Origin: Haemophilus parainfluenzae
Lineage (GTDB): Bacteria; Pseudomonadota; Gammaproteobacteria; Enterobacterales; Pasteurellaceae
Length of the DNA: 64,000 bases
Direction: 5' to 3'
Assembly (NCBI RefSeq): GCF_036288925.1
Contig: NZ_CP127167.1
Coordinates: forward strand, 1,736,001 to 1,800,000
The notes below the pieces were generated by a model. That model ran no database searches. It was not told the origin of the DNA and saw nothing but the letters and a program-made list of their open reading frames with translations. Shown here piece after piece: positions 44,416 to 51,139 of the stretch (its first letter is position 1; the number at the start of each line of letters is the position of its first letter). The translations under genes and the position numbers were made by a program.

Positions 44416-45960
44416 ATGGCAGCAGCAATTCAACAACGCGCCGAACTTCAACGCCGTATTTGGCAAATTGCTAATGATGTACGCGGTTCTGTCGATGGTT
44501 GGGATTTTAAACAATACGTTTTGGGCTCACTTTTCTATCGCTTTATTAGCGAAAACTTTGCTAATTATATTGAAGGTGGTGATAAAAGTGTGAACTATGC
44601 CGGTTTATCTGATGACATCATCACGCCAGAAATTAAAACAGATGCGATAAAAACCAAGGGCTATTTTATTTACCCAAGCCAATTATTTAAAAATGTCGTG
44701 GCAACAGCCAACACTAATCCGAATTTAAATACAGACCTAAAAAACATTTTTACAGCTATCGAAAACTCCGCTACTGGCTACCCTTCCGAACAGGATATCA
44801 AAGGCTTATTTGCTGATTTTGATACCACCAGCAACCGCTTGGGCAATACCGTTGCCGATAAAAACAGCCGTCTCGCTGCCGTATTAAAAGGCGTTGCCGA
44901 GTTAGATTTTGGTGACTTTGAAGATAATCATATTGATTTATTCGGTGATGCTTACGAATTTTTAATTTCCAACTATGCTGCTAATGCCGGTAAATCGGGT
45001 GGCGAGTTCTTTACGCCACAATGCGTTTCCAAGCTGATTGCTCGACTGGCTTTATATGGACAAGAGAAGGTCAATAAAATTTACGACCCTGCGGCCGGTT
45101 CAGGTTCTTTATTATTGCAAGCGAAAAAACAATTTGATGAACACATCATTGAAGAAGGATTCTTTGGGCAAGAAATCAATCACACCACTTATAACCTTGC
45201 TCGTATGAATATGTTTTTGCATAACATCAACTACGACAAGTTTGATATCGCCCTTGGCAACACTTTAATGCATCCGCAATTTGGCGAGGATAAGCCCTTT
45301 GATGCCATTGTTTCTAACCCACCTTACTCCGTGAAATGGATTGGCTCAGACGATCCAACGCTAATTAACGATGAACGCTTTGCCCCTGCTGGCGTGCTTG
45401 CACCAAAATCCAAAGCGGACTTTGCCTTTATTTTACATGCGTTAAGTTATCTTTCAGCAAAAGGCCGTGCGGCGATTGTCTCCTTCCCCGGCATTTTTTA
45501 CCGTGGCGGTGCGGAACAAAAAATTCGTCAATATTTGGTGGATAATAACTATGTGGAAACCGTGATTGCGCTTGCTCCAAATCTCTTTTTCGGCACCAGT
45601 ATTGCGGTGAATATTTTGGTGCTTTCCAAACATAAACCCGATACTCAAACCCAATTTATCGATGCCAGCGGTTTATTTAAATCCGCCACCAATAACAACA
45701 TTTTAGAAGAAGAACATATTGAGCAAATGCTCAAACTGTTTGCCGATAAAGAGAATGTACCGCATTTGGCAAAATCAGTCTCCTTTGAAGAAATCGTTAA
45801 AAATGACTACAACCTTGCGGTGAGTTCTTATGTGGAGCAAAAAGACACCCGCGAAGTCATTGATATCGATGAGCTCAATGCGCAAATTCGTGAAACTGTT
45901 GCCAATATTGACTGCTTGCGTGCCGAGATTGACAAGATTGTGGCAGAAATTGAGGGATAA
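44416..45960 (+). CDS. hsdM: Type I restriction-modification methyltransferase subunit
   Basis: A 514-residue adenine methyltransferase, two copies of which join HsdS to methylate the host recognition site. The N-terminal helical domain starts [20 protein letters not shown]. The SAM motif [10 protein letters not shown] is near residue 228, preceded by [10 protein letters not shown], and catalytic NPPYS is near residue 301. ATG 44416 follows GAGGA. The C-terminus has a coiled coil ([20 protein letters not shown]). It heads an hsdM-hsdS-[RAYT]-hsdR cluster divergent from recB. Confidence 0.96.
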
Positions 45961-45963
45961 AAT

Positions 45964-46073
45964 GTAGGGTGGGCTTTAGCCCACCAATAAGATTAAAAAA
46001 TAACAGCAAACCGTAGGGTGGGCTTCAGCCCACCAATTTACGATAACTTGCGGTGGGCTGAAGCCCACCCTAC
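45964..46073. repeat. REP palindromes between hsdM and hsdS
   Basis: Three copies of the palindrome GGTGGGCTNNAGCCCACC: a single one at 45964-45986, then an inverted doublet at 46013-46036 and 46051-46073. Each copy has a GTAGGGTGGGC-type outer edge, and the two members of the doublet face outwards, the arrangement called a REPIN. They fill most of the hsdM-hsdS gap and would form hairpins in the mRNA. Confidence 0.9.
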
Positions 46074-46092
46074 GAGAAGCAACAAAAATACA

Positions 46093-47274
46093 ATGAAAAA
46101 CAACCGCACTTTTTTAGAAAAATTATTGGATGGGGCTAAGGTTGAGTGGAAGCCTCTAAAAGACATTCTAATCAGAACTAAAGGCACAAAAATTACAGCT
46201 GCTGAAATGAAAGTATTGCATAAAGACAATGCACCACTAAAAATTTTTGCTGGCGGGAAAACATTTGCATTAGTAAATTTTGAAGATATCCCTGAAAAAG
46301 ACATCAATAAAAATCCTTCAATTATTGTAAAGTCTCGAGGAATTATTGAATTTGAATATTACGATAAGCCTTTTTCTCATAAAAATGAAATGTGGTCTTA
46401 TTATTCAAATGATAAAAATATTAATATTAAATACATTTATTATGTTTTGAAAAATCAGGAACCCTATTTCCAAAATTTAGGTTCAAAGATGCAAATGCCT
46501 CAGATTGCAACACCTGATACAGATAAATATTTAGTCCCCATCCCCCCACTCTCGGTCCAAACCGAAATCGTAAAAATTTTGGACGCATTGACAGCCCTTA
46601 CCAGCGAGCTTACCAGCGAGCTTACCAGCGAGCTTATACTACGCCAGAAACAATATGAATACTATCGGGAAAAATTGTTATCTTTTGATAGTTTAGAACA
46701 ATTAAATTCGGGGGGGGGGAAGAAGAAACTTATTGATGTGGCTATTTATGCAAAATCACGCATCTCGACTGATAAATTGGATAAAGAAAATTATATAGGG
46801 GTAGAAAATTTACTTCAAAATAAACTGGGTAAAACAAGTTCCAATTATGTACCAACTGAAGGCTCATTTATTGAATATCTTCCTAATGATATTTTAATTG
46901 GAAACATTCGTCCCTATTTAAGAAAAATCTGGTTAGCAGATAAAACAGGTGGAACAAATGGTGATGTGTTAGTTATACGATTGACAGATGAAAACATTAT
47001 TTCACATTATCTTTATCATATATTGGCAAATGAACATTTCTTTGAATATAACGTTAAATATTCAAAAGGTGCAAAAATGCCTCGAGGGGATAAAACTGCA
47101 ATTTTGCAATATGAGTTTGATGTTCCCCCACTCGAAGAACAACACCGCATCGTTTCAATCCTCGATAAATTTGAAACCTTAACTAATTCCATCACCGAAG
47201 GCTTGCCTTTAGCGATTGAACAAAGCCAAAAGCGGTATGAATATTACCGAGAATTGCTATTAAATTTCTCGTAA
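46093..47274 (+). CDS. hsdS: Type I specificity subunit HsdS, with two slippable tracts
   Basis: A 393-residue specificity protein that positions HsdM and HsdR on a bipartite DNA target. ATG 46093 (MKNNRTFLEKLLDGAKVEWK) is preferred; the frame upstream runs through a REP. Target-recognition domain 1 spans about 15-155, the first conserved helix contains PPLSVQTEIVKILDALTALT, TRD2 spans about 215-340, and the second helix contains PPLEEQHRIVSILDKFETLT. Three LTSE repeats extend helix 1, and a G10 run (46710-46719) lies at the start of TRD2. As read the gene is on. A one-base slip would leave a half-subunit of about 210 residues, as known for NgoAV of Neisseria. Confidence 0.93.
   Translation: MKNNRTFLEKLLDGAKVEWKPLKDILIRTKGTKITAAEMKVLHKDNAPLKIFAGGKTFALVNFEDIPEKDINKNPSIIVKSRGIIEFEYYDKPFSHKNEMWSYYSNDKNINIKYIYYVLKNQEPYFQNLGSKMQMPQIATPDTDKYLVPIPPLSVQTEIVKILDALTALTSELTSELTSELILRQKQYEYYREKLLSFDSLEQLNSGGGKKKLIDVAIYAKSRISTDKLDKENYIGVENLLQNKLGKTSSNYVPTEGSFIEYLPNDILIGNIRPYLRKIWLADKTGGTNGDVLVIRLTDENIISHYLYHILANEHFFEYNVKYSKGAKMPRGDKTAILQYEFDVPPLEEQHRIVSILDKFETLTNSITEGLPLAIEQSQKRYEYYRELLLNFS
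46597..46632 (+). repeat. Three tandem 12-bp repeats in the HsdS spacer
   Basis: CTTACCAGCGAG occurs three times in perfect tandem, encoding LTSE three times. Gain or loss of one unit keeps the frame but lengthens or shortens the helix separating the two TRDs. In EcoR124I the analogous TAEL repeats change the target spacer length. Confidence 0.93.
46710..46719 (+). repeat. Homopolymer G10 in hsdS
   Basis: Ten consecutive G read as Ser-Gly-Gly-Gly-Lys between the central helix and TRD2. The count given keeps the frame open. Such tracts slip during replication. Confidence 0.93.
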
Positions 47275-47277
47275 CCC

Positions 47278-47382
47278 GTAGGGTGGGCTTCAGCCCACCA
47301 ATTAATCACAACAAACGGTGGGCTAAAGCCCACCCTACAATGTAATGAGAATATTTTTATGGTGGGCTAAAGCCCACCCTAC
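47278..47382. repeat. REP palindromes between hsdS and the RAYT gene
   Basis: An inverted doublet (47278-47301 and 47317-47338) plus a third single REP (47361-47382) in the second orientation, core GGTGGGCTNNAGCCCACC. They begin three bases after the hsdS stop and end 22 bases before the RAYT start. Confidence 0.9.
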
Positions 47383-47404
47383 GAACGACAATTTGGAATA
47401 ATAT

Positions 47405-47935
47405 ATGTCTAATTATCGTCGCAATTTTACTAAAGGTGGATTATATTTTTTCACAATTGTTTTACAAGATAGAACAAAATCTTATCTAACTGACTATATC
47501 AATGAATTTAGATCTGCATATAAACAAACTTGTGAACATTATCCATTCGAAACAGTAGCAATTTGTATTTTGCCCGATCATATTCATTTACTGATGCAAT
47601 TACCTGAAAATGATGATAATTACGCAATACGCATCGCATATTTAAAAACACAATTTACACGACAACTTCCAAAAGAATGCCGACAATTTAATAAAAATAG
47701 ACAAAAATATCGAGAATCAGGTATTTGGCAACGCCGATTTTGGGAGCATTTAATTCGTGATGATAAAGATTTAGCGAATCATTTAGATTATATTTATTAC
47801 AATCCTGTGAAACACGGCTATGTTGAGGTAGTAAAAGATTGGCCGTATTCTTCCTTCCATCGTGATGTAAAAGCAGAGATTTATCCTGAAGATTGGGGAG
47901 GCAACCCAGATTTGAAAATTAAAGGTGATATATAA
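47405..47935 (+). CDS. REP-associated tyrosine transposase (RAYT)
   Basis: A 176-residue single-strand DNA transposase of the Y1/IS200-related RAYT class, which moves or maintains REP sequences and is usually a single-copy chromosomal gene. Landmarks: FTKGGLYFFTIVLQDR, HUH motif LPDHIHLLMQLP (His59 and His61), WQRRFWEHLIRDD, and the catalytic Tyr region LDYIYYNPVKHGYV (about 127-140). ATG 47405 has only a weak ribosome-binding site. REP palindromes flank it on both sides. Its place between hsdS and hsdR, in the same direction, is unusual, and it splits the operon without disrupting its genes. Confidence 0.92.
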   Translation: MSNYRRNFTKGGLYFFTIVLQDRTKSYLTDYINEFRSAYKQTCEHYPFETVAICILPDHIHLLMQLPENDDNYAIRIAYLKTQFTRQLPKECRQFNKNRQKYRESGIWQRRFWEHLIRDDKDLANHLDYIYYNPVKHGYVEVVKDWPYSSFHRDVKAEIYPEDWGGNPDLKIKGDI

Positions 47936-47942
47936 CAATACT

Positions 47943-48008
47943 GTAGGGTGGGCTTTAGCCCACCAATTAACAATCATAAATAAAACGGTGGGCTAAAGCC
48001 CACCCTAC
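47943..48008. repeat. REP doublet between the RAYT and hsdR
   Basis: Inverted pair of REPs: GTAGGGTGGGCTTTAGCCCA at 47943 and its mirror GGTGGGCTAAAGCCCACCCT near 47987, with about 21 AT-rich bases between. It begins seven bases after the RAYT stop. Confidence 0.9.
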
Positions 48009-48043
48009 AAAAACTAAAAAGCAAAAGCATTAAGGAACTACTT

Positions 48044-51000
48044 ATGACCCAATACAAAACTATCGCTGAATCTAATAATTTTATCGTTTTAGATCAATAT
48101 AATAAGTTTGTTGAAGAACCTAATGCCGGTTATCAAACGGAAGGTAGCCTTGAGCGTGAGTTTATTCGTAATTTACAGGCGCAAGGCTATGAGTATTTAC
48201 AAGAAATCAATGGTCATGATGCGTTGATTAAAAACTTACGGGCACAATTACAACGCTTAAATAACGTGGTTTTCTCTGATGCGGAATGGCGACGTTTTTT
48301 AGAGGAATATTTGGATAAATCGAGCGATAGTCTGATTGAAAAAACCCGTAAAATTCATGATGACTATATTTATGATTTTGTGTTTGATAATGGACGCATT
48401 CAGAATATCTATTTGCTAGATAAGAGAAATCTTACCAATAACACTCTGCAAGTCATCAATCAATTTGAGCAAAGCGGTAGCTATGATAATCGTTATGATG
48501 TGACGATTTTGATCAATGGTTTACCGCTTGTGCATATCGAACTAAAAAAACGTGGCGTGGCGATTCGTGAAGCCTTTAATCAAATTCACCGCTACAGCAA
48601 AGAAAGTTTCAATAAAGAAAATTCTCTCTTTAAATATATTCAGATTTTTGTCATTTCTAATGGCACAGATACCCGATATTTTGCCAATACCACCAAGCGA
48701 GATAAGAACAGCTACGACTTCACAATGAATTGGGCAACGGCAAAAAATACTCTGATTAAAGATTTAAAGGATTTTACGGCGACATTCCTACAAAAACATA
48801 CCCTGCTCAATGTGTTGGTGAATTACTGCGTGTTTGATGTTTCCGACACCCTATTAATTATGCGCCCCTATCAAATTGCCGCCACCGAGCGTATTTTATG
48901 GAAAATCAAAAGTTCTTATTTAGCAAAAAGCTGGAGCAATAAAGAAAGTGGTGGCTATATTTGGCATACCACAGGTTCAGGCAAAACGCTCACCAGCTTT
49001 AAAGCCGCACGTCTTGCAACAGAATTAGACTTTATTGAAAAAGTATTCTTCGTAGTAGATAGAAAAGATTTGGACTATCAAACTATGAAAGAATACCAGC
49101 GCTTTTCACCGGATAGCGTGAATGGCTCGGAAAGTACGGCTGGGCTAAAACGCAATATCGAAAAAGACGACAATAAAATCATTGTTACCACCATTCAAAA
49201 ACTCAACAACCTGATGAAATCGGAAGATAAATTACCGATTTACGATAAACAGGTCGTTTTTATCTTTGATGAATGCCATCGTTCTCAATTTGGTGAAGCG
49301 CAAAAAAATCTAACGAGAAAATTTAAAAAATACTATCAATTTGGTTTTACCGGCACGCCTATTTTTCCAACTAACGCATTAGGTGCCGAAACTACAGCCA
49401 GTGTTTTTGGCATCGAACTCCACTCTTACATTATCACCGATGCGATTCGTGATGAAAAAGTGTTGAAATTTAAAGTGGATTACAATGATGTACGACCACA
49501 ATTCAAGAGCATTGAAACCGAAAAAAATCTTGAAAAACTGACCGCACTTGAGAAGAAACAAGCCTTTTTACAGCCTAAACGCATCGAGCAAATAGCCCAA
49601 TATGTTTTAGATAATTTCAAACAAAAGACACATCGCTTTAATGCGGGTAACAATGGCTTTAATGCGATGTTTGCGGTAAGTAGCGTAGATGCTGCTAAAG
49701 CTTATTATCAAACGTTTAAACAGTTACAAAGTGCGGTCAAAAATCCACTTAAAATTGCAACAATCTTTTCGTTTGCCTCGAATGAAGAACAAGATGCGAT
49801 TGGCGATATTGTTGATGAAAGTTTTGAAGTAGAGGCAATGAACTCTTCTGCTAAGGAATTTTTAAAATCTGCCATTGATGATTACAACGGCTATTTTGCC
49901 ACCAATTATGATGTGGATGCAAAATCGTTCCAAAACTACTATCGTGATCTCGCCAAACGCGTCAAAAACAAAGAAGTGGATTTACTGATTGTCGTTGGAA
50001 TGTTTTTAACTGGTTTTGATGCCCCAACCTTAAATACGTTATTTGTAGATAAAAACTTGCGTTATCATGGTTTGATTCAAGCTTATTCTCGTACAAACCG
50101 TATTTACAACAGCACCAAAAGTTTCGGCAATATCGTCACTTTCCGCGACTTGGAACAAGATACCATTGATGCGATTACCCTTTTCGGTAAATCCAATACG
50201 CGCAATGTCGTTTTGGAAAAAAGTTACCAAGAATATATGGAAGGCTTCACCGATGCGGGTGTTGCCCGTCGTGGTTATTTAGAGGTTATTGCTGAATTGC
50301 AAGAACGCTTCCCAGATCCAGATGTAATTCAAACGGAAAAAGACAAAAAAGACTTTGTGAAATTATTTGGTGAATATTTGCGGGTTGAAAACATTCTGCA
50401 AAACTATGATGAGTTCGCTGCTTTACAAGTATTTCAATCACTCGATACCAGCGATGCAAAAGCCGTTGAAGACTTTAAAGAAAAATATTATTTAACGGAC
50501 GAAGCTTTTGCTGAAATGCAACCTATTGATATGCCAAGCGAACGTAGCATTCAGAATTACCGTTCAACTTACAACGATATTCGGGATTGGCTCCGTCGTC
50601 AAAAAGATGGTGAGGAAAAAGCAAAATCGACCATTGATTGGGACGATGTGGTGTTTGAAGTGGATTTATTAAAATCCCAAGAAATCAATCTAGATTACAT
50701 CTTAGAATTGATTTTTGAACACAACAAGAAAATGAAAAATAAATCTGAGCTGATTGATGAAATTCGAACCACAATCCGAGCGAGCCTAGGTAATCGAGCC
50801 AAAGAAAGTTTAATCGTAGATTTTATCAATCAAACGGACTTAGATAGCATAGTTGATAAAGCCGGTATTATTGAATCTTTCTTCCAATTTGCCCAAAAAG
50901 AGCAACAGAAAGAAGCTGACGAATTAATTAGCAGTGAAGGGCTGAATATTGATGCCGCGAAGCGTTATATTAACGTATCCTTAAAACGCGGATATGCTAG

Positions 51001-51139
51001 TGAACAAGGTACGGATTTAAATGATGCCCTACCGAAAATGAGTCCGCTTAATCCGCAATATCTCACGAAAAAACAAAGCATTTTCCAAAAGATCGTTGCC
51101 TTTGTTGAGAAGTTTGTTGGGATTGGTGGCGAGGTTTGA
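48044..51139 (+). CDS. hsdR: Type I restriction endonuclease subunit HsdR
   Basis: A 1031-residue translocase-nuclease that reels in and cuts unmethylated DNA. The N-terminal PD-(D/E)xK domain shows [16 protein letters not shown] near residue 170. The translocase has [14 protein letters not shown] near 308, [13 protein letters not shown] near 408, FTGTPIF, and [13 protein letters not shown]. The C-terminal helical domain binds the methyltransferase. ATG 48044 (AAGGA upstream) lies 36 bases after a REP doublet. The frame is intact, so restriction should be active when hsdS is on. It is followed by a strong terminator. Confidence 0.96.

Follow-up and report, generated by a model that had tools for sequence, protein, structure and literature searches.

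A type I restriction operon of Haemophilus parainfluenzae holds, between hsdS and hsdR, a RAYT transposase gene flanked by paired REP palindromes (REPINs), and this RAYT with its REPINs is probably a hitchhiking cargo cassette in a horizontally exchanged operon. In the usual account a RAYT is a domesticated transposase, present once per genome and inherited vertically; here one RAYT crosses genus boundaries within a defence operon, next to genes that have diverged far more, and the slot that it occupies has been taken several times by RAYT-like genes. These observations suggest that restriction operons carry such "stay-at-home" RAYTs between species, and a RAYT carried in an hsd operon has in that operon a vehicle for its spread. 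The view that RAYTs pass only vertically can thus be tested directly, and RAYTs join the genes to be considered as possible accessories of type I restriction. In what follows, the window is the whole 64-kb stretch of DNA that was analysed, G000 is the genome from which it comes, and the family sample consists of 140 genomes, one per species.

Anatomy of the operon and its REP palindromes

In profile scans HsdM, RAYT and HsdR scored far above their family cut-offs, and HsdS clearly matched Methylase_S (Table 1). With HsdM, a two-TRD HsdS and an HsdR that carries an EcoR124_C domain in one operon, the locus is by gene content an EcoR124-like type I restriction-modification system of putative activity. 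As the first-pass annotation had it, hsdS is followed by the RAYT gene and this by hsdR, all in the same direction, and the RAYT gene is the single match to this RAYT in the source genome. A second type I methyltransferase is encoded in the same genome (G000:C1:1818000-1819679); it belongs to a family unrelated to that of the window, the L145-type, and no RAYT-like gene adjoins it among the matches of at least 45 bits.

Table 1. Features of the hsd operon in the window, and related loci in other genomes
Feature	Position	Strand	Match or remark
hsdM-hsdS-RAYT-hsdR operon	44416-51139, 6.7 kb	all genes +	family and domain matches
hsdM, type I methyltransferase subunit, 514 aa	44416..45960	+	TIGR00497, E 2e-195
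Single GTAG-tagged REP, hsdM-hsdS gap	45964..45985	+	
REPIN 1, two inverted REPs, tags outside, hsdM stop to hsdS start	46013..46073	.	predicted as one long hairpin
hsdS, 393 aa, two TRDs	46093..47274	+	PF01420 (Methylase_S)
REPIN 2, begins 4 nt past hsdS stop	47278..47338	.	
Single REP, right flank of RAYT promoter-side gap	47361..47382	-	
RAYT, 176 aa	47405..47935	+	NF047646, 180 bits (cut-off 80)
REPIN 3, between RAYT and hsdR	47943..48008	.	right end abuts RhuM 3'-end stub (about 48018-48032)
hsdR, 1031 aa, EcoR124-like	48044..51139	+	TIGR00348, PF12008
Window-family REPs before hsdR in unrelated type I operons	L344 5682-5738; L345 4682-4738, 5892		
Class-level hsdR-linked match, G330 (other family)	L335/L347	one strand	hsdS-X-RAYT-hsdR
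Class-level hsdR-linked match	L339/L348		one ORF between; contig ends before hsdM

The assignment of the RAYT to NF047646, by its score against the curated cut-off, agrees with the inverted GTAG-tagged REPs on either side of the gene. The protein is homologous over residues 1-167 to E. coli TnpAREP, itself a RAYT (PDB 4er8; E 2e-41), and the columns of the HUH motif and the tyrosine are conserved: H59-I-H61 and the candidate catalytic Y129 align with HMH and Y115 of the E. coli structure, the latter being what we take to be the catalytic residue. We know of no description of the E. coli rayt as a member of an hsd operon, in contrast with the RAYT of the window.

An exact search recovered eight GGTGGGCT-NN-AGCCCACC palindromes (45968, 46017, 46052, 47282, 47317, 47361, 47947, 47987), all within the three gaps of the operon and none elsewhere in the 64-kb window. 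Six of them form three inverted doublets (46017/46052, 47282/47317, 47947/47987) with GTAG/CTAC tags at the outer ends, and those at 45968 and 47361 are singles, which upholds the initial description of eight palindromes, six in outward-facing doublets, distributed over every gap of hsdM-hsdS-RAYT-hsdR. A chance cluster is rejected, since 0.04 palindromes are expected in the window at up to three mismatches and eight were reached by none of 100 shuffles. The doublets are REPINs in that each joins two inverted REPs with outside tags and has dispersed copies in the genome, in a population that is small. The RhuM stub next to REPIN 3 was found by letter comparison between loci.

In strain Rd, the RAYT NP_438385 is presumably an hsd neighbour. 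The RAYT/REP pair itself is already known from H. influenzae: NP_438385 of Rd KW20 is described as a RAYT flanked by inverted REPs, a REPtron (Nunvar et al. 2010, PMC2817692), which shares with the window both this arrangement and the REP letters, GTAGGGTGGGCTT(c/t)AGCCCACC. The words "hsd" and "restriction" are absent from the text of PMC2817692, PMC3733652 and PMC6006769, and "restriction" from that of PMC8049555; no report of RAYTs residing in restriction operons was found in the open-licence literature searched.

Genome-wide, there are 14 exact palindromes in the source genome, the eight of the operon and six in three other doublets, and the near-matches include a degenerate REP pair at 728379/728422. 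On the question, raised with the initial annotation, of whether the REPs are enriched at the operon or dispersed, 8 of the 15 tagged REPs (GTAG + 18, up to one mismatch) lie within the 6.7-kb operon of a 2.23-Mb genome. The operon holds 7/7 of the tagged REPs of G018 and 8/9 of those of G080, as expected of a recent arrival, and the REPtron paper describes REPs as gathering near newly transferred rayt genes (PMC2817692). Counting against hitchhiking, most REPs lie outside the operon in G064 (0/18 inside) and G058 (1/26), and operons that lack a RAYT hold REPs too: in the 18 genomes with a RAYT-less window-type operon, that operon accounts for 11 of the 122 tagged REPs, where we estimate that its length alone would give roughly 0.4, so that REPINs need no linked RAYT. 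In G023 and G025, L145-type operons with no adjacent RAYT also have REPs of the window family immediately before hsdR.

Horizontal spread and the cargo slot

Matches to this RAYT at E <= 1e-10 were found in 25 of the 140 family genomes. At 98% protein identity or more the RAYT is present in seven genomes (window included) from four genera, and in all seven it lies between hsdS and hsdR. Its identity to the window protein is 98-99% in the six other genomes, while RecB is 42-63% identical in five of them (G065 61%, G080 55%, G018 53%, G008 42%; G060, in two pieces, 63 and 56%), the exception being G079, whose two RecB pieces reach 91/79%. Over the seven loci, mean pS is 0.10 for the RAYT (0.01-0.18), 0.40 for hsdM and 0.48 for hsdR; the RAYT is the gene of lowest pS in all 21 locus pairs, and between G000 and G060 the synonymous differences are 0.019 for the RAYT, 0.53 for hsdM and 0.62 for hsdR. 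With a pS so far below that of hsdM and hsdR, the module must have moved between operons after the hsd genes diverged: the RAYT module moves horizontally between hsd operons, across genera. RecB identity and synonymous divergence together point to intergenus transfer, and the suggestion made at first reading, that the two systems travel together, is supported, with every RAYT of this identity inside an hsd operon.

Two points count against hitchhiking here. The low synonymous divergence could partly reflect constraint, and RAYTs are held to be vertically inherited (PMC8049555). The gene is under purifying selection (pN/pS 0.05, seven loci). The REPtron paper reports that rayt diverges faster than its neighbours (PMC2817692), whereas the window RAYT is the least diverged gene of its operon.

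There were 52 hsdM matches, and 45 window-type loci were examined (left out: G084, G024, G098, G117, G123, G027 and G025:C58). Seven have this RAYT and 34 have none; G009, G012 and G082 have distant RAYTs (25-29% identity) in the hsdS-hsdR slot, and in G083 a RAYT of 71% identity follows hsdR and precedes a further hsdS piece. Besides these genes, the gaps of the 45 loci contain 64 ORFs of 80 aa or more, which group into 14 clusters, and the ten cluster representatives that were scanned and annotated are RhuM, AAA_13 (two), an AlbA/Fic-like protein, Abi_2, Fic (two), DUF3800, a Pycsar-effector-like TM protein and a cyclase-like protein. The last two kinds form a Pycsar-like pair in the hsdS-hsdR slot of G118 (L203 8612-9922). 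None of the ten is another transposase, which counts against hitchhiking in that a promiscuous slot should often take other transposases, and hints at specificity. Type I operons with cargo of the PrrC, RloC and RhuM kinds likewise have extra genes between hsdM, hsdS and hsdR, but in the window the extra gene encodes an IS200/IS605-fold transposase that has repeats of its own. Linkage of PrrC to restriction-modification genes is described in PMC2610378.

The comparison of hsd loci with and without the insert, which the initial annotation had called for, can be read at the hsdM-hsdS junction: in empty operons about ten nucleotides separate the hsdM stop from the hsdS start, and eight genomes have a REPIN with shared flanks at this point (G000, G018, G060, G008, G080, G063, G058, G062), in three of which (G063, G058, G062) the operon has no RAYT. 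Fragments of neighbouring genes adjoin the REPINs. In G060 and G080, REPINs enclose hsdS 3' tails (aa 368-393 and aa 364-393, respectively) with 100% protein identity to the window's; a RhuM 3'-end stub stands beside a REPIN in G000, G008, G060 and G129; and Abi_2 downstream sequence abuts a REPIN in G065, and a GTAGG scar is seen in G077, the stubs being judged by eye from the letters. REPINs therefore mark module joints, adjoining hsdS or RhuM stubs.

The hsdS-hsdR slot is occupied by alternative cassettes, namely RAYT with REPINs, RhuM, Abi_2, Fic or AAA genes, and under the hitchhiking reading the RAYT cassette would spread between species inside the operon through DNA uptake and homologous recombination, more recently than the flanking hsdM and hsdR. 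The REPINs may have been copied by the RAYT beside its own gene, or carried along, and would have turned into module joints, points where neighbouring cassettes are cut off. The benefit to the RAYT would then be transport by an operon that is mobile and may be addictive, not a role in restriction.

Recurrence of RAYT-like genes in type I operons

A search of the 140 genomes with NF047646 gave 98 genes of at least 45 bits, a set complete above that score, and 26 of them lie in type I operons; chance would place about 0.4 there, assuming 10 kb per type I locus. G006, ambiguous because of an orphan-looking hsdR match of 34% identity 2 kb away, was left out of the 26. The occurrence of one cassette at many unrelated loci, which would speak against the link with hsd, was not seen for the clade of at least 98% identity, yet 72 of the 98 RAYT-like genes are outside the counted operons. 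Window-type operons hold eleven of the 26, each on the same strand as the hsd genes, and the unrelated L145-type family holds the other 15; the HsdM and HsdR proteins of the two families are 25-29% identical. Thirteen of the 15 constitute one clade whose members are antisense to the operon and immediately precede hsdR, with two incomplete cases (the G098 sequence stops short of hsdR, and in G012:C1 hsdR is the only hsd gene seen); at 46.8-61 bits the thirteen are below the NF047646 cut-off of 80 and are labelled RAYT-like only. A fourteenth candidate, in G125, has 44.9 bits, just under the 45-bit cut. RAYT-like genes antisense to L145-type operons, just upstream of hsdR, are seen in nine genera (L298, L300, L301, L308, L309, L312-L318, L292, L346).

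A tree was built from 93 rows, the other five of the 98 having broken or short frames, and on it the hsd-linkage label needs six changes; AU tests reject a single clade for all 26 (p-AU 3e-29) and also for the 11 window-type RAYTs. Single linkage at 50% divides the RAYTs into seven families, four of them with hsd-linked members, and different RAYTs bring different palindromes into the same hsd gaps. In the clade of thirteen, the scan for flanking palindromes covered stems of 9 or more, longer than the 8-bp stems of the window.

Such recurrence could reflect functional partnership: the RAYT, a single-strand HUH nuclease, would be an accessory part of restriction, so that unrelated RAYTs return to the slot. 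PrrC, an anticodon nuclease that adjoins EcoprrI, offers an analogue. We regard this as unlikely, although it accords with the six label changes and the rejection of a single origin, and with several properties of the clade of thirteen: within the 140 family genomes every member is in an L145-type hsd locus, 12 of the 13 aligned rows retain the HUH residues, and distances at 11 loci follow those of HsdM (Mantel r 0.67, p 0.0001) and HsdR (r 0.56, p 0.0005), a correlation that can also stem from shared species history. The arrangement in G330, from another family, and the strong purifying selection on the RAYT point the same way, but such selection is usual for RAYTs anywhere. Against partnership, 34 of the 45 window-type operons do without a RAYT, the orientation of the gene differs between the two operon families, and the two RAYTs tried gave no match to PADLOC models. 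Because of the recurrence and the clade of thirteen, a bolder reading may be considered, in which type I operons are a recurrent home of RAYTs, unrelated lineages having entered at least two type I families, with one clade found only there and co-diverged, and in which these proteins now work as accessory subunits, for example by nicking single-stranded restriction products or invading DNA; this, too, we consider doubtful.

At the level of the class, a profile built from 12 of the 13 clade rows gave 13 matches in 10 of 369 genomes. Two of these are just upstream of HsdR (Table 1), and the flanks of the other eleven span about 1.5 kb or less; restriction of the clade's linkage to Pasteurellaceae is rejected by these two relatives. 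The idea that proteobacterial RAYTs are generally linked to hsd genes was likewise discarded, as such linkage is not seen in 79 of 80 contig loci (flanks of up to 6 kb, several contigs cut), the one with hsd genes nearby being H. haemolyticus M19187.

REPIN hairpins and hsdS variability

REPINs might also be retained because, as hairpins in the mRNA, they adjust how much HsdM, HsdS, RAYT and HsdR is made relative to one another, a reading compatible with hitchhiking that we find rather improbable as the explanation of the locus. The REPINs start 4-12 nt from a stop codon and end just upstream of the next start, and at the hsdM-hsdS junction, about 10 nt long when empty, insertion parts nearly contiguous genes. 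Predicted fold energies of the three gaps are -68, -65 and -51 kcal/mol (z -9.4, -9.1 and -11.3). Hairpins as stable as these are predicted because the palindromes themselves fold, which is no sign of selection, and many intact operons of the same family have no REPINs.

Least probable of all, in our estimation, is that hsdS (or hsdR) is exchanged adaptively, driven by homologous recombination between the REPIN repeats: the identical hsdS 3' tails trapped between REPINs at two loci (G060, G080) and the recurrence of REPIN spacer types across different gaps would fit, but median pairwise hsdS identity is 38.6% at nine loci with a REPIN before hsdS and 40.7% at 15 loci without, conserved hsdS ends already supply homology, and neither a recombinase nor an inverted hsdS pair is seen. 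The earlier proposal that REPs shuffle hsdS is thereby weakened, and REPs as a necessary cause of hsdS diversity are ruled out, hsdS being equally diverse without them.

As to the phase-variable nature ascribed to the operon at first pass, a plausible switch was located, and the variability itself stays a prediction from sequence. A G10 tract lies inside hsdS between the two TRD halves (46710-46719) and is a candidate for slipped-strand switching of HsdS. Of 45 related loci, 20 have poly-G/poly-C tracts of 7-20 in the interval from hsdM to hsdR, regardless of REPs, so that phase variation, if real, has a mechanism of its own. The inverted hsdS pair with a recombinase that marks phase-variable type I systems of the hsdS-inverting kind is absent, a single hsdS lying between hsdM and hsdR, and the RAYT family is not a site-specific invertase family. 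The pneumococcal cod locus, a phase-variable type I system with hsdS inversion (PMC11709252), is alike in its variable hsdS but differs from the window, in which no inverted hsdS pair or invertase was seen and whose switch candidate is the poly-G tract.

Two further features of hsdS were noted. Three perfect 12-bp repeats in its central part (46597-46632) encode TSEL x3 and, we presume, resemble the EcoR124 spacer repeats. At the start of the gene (46100-46112) stands ACCGCACTT, which we take to resemble the Haemophilus DNA uptake sequence; the same letters are found in most of the relatives compared.
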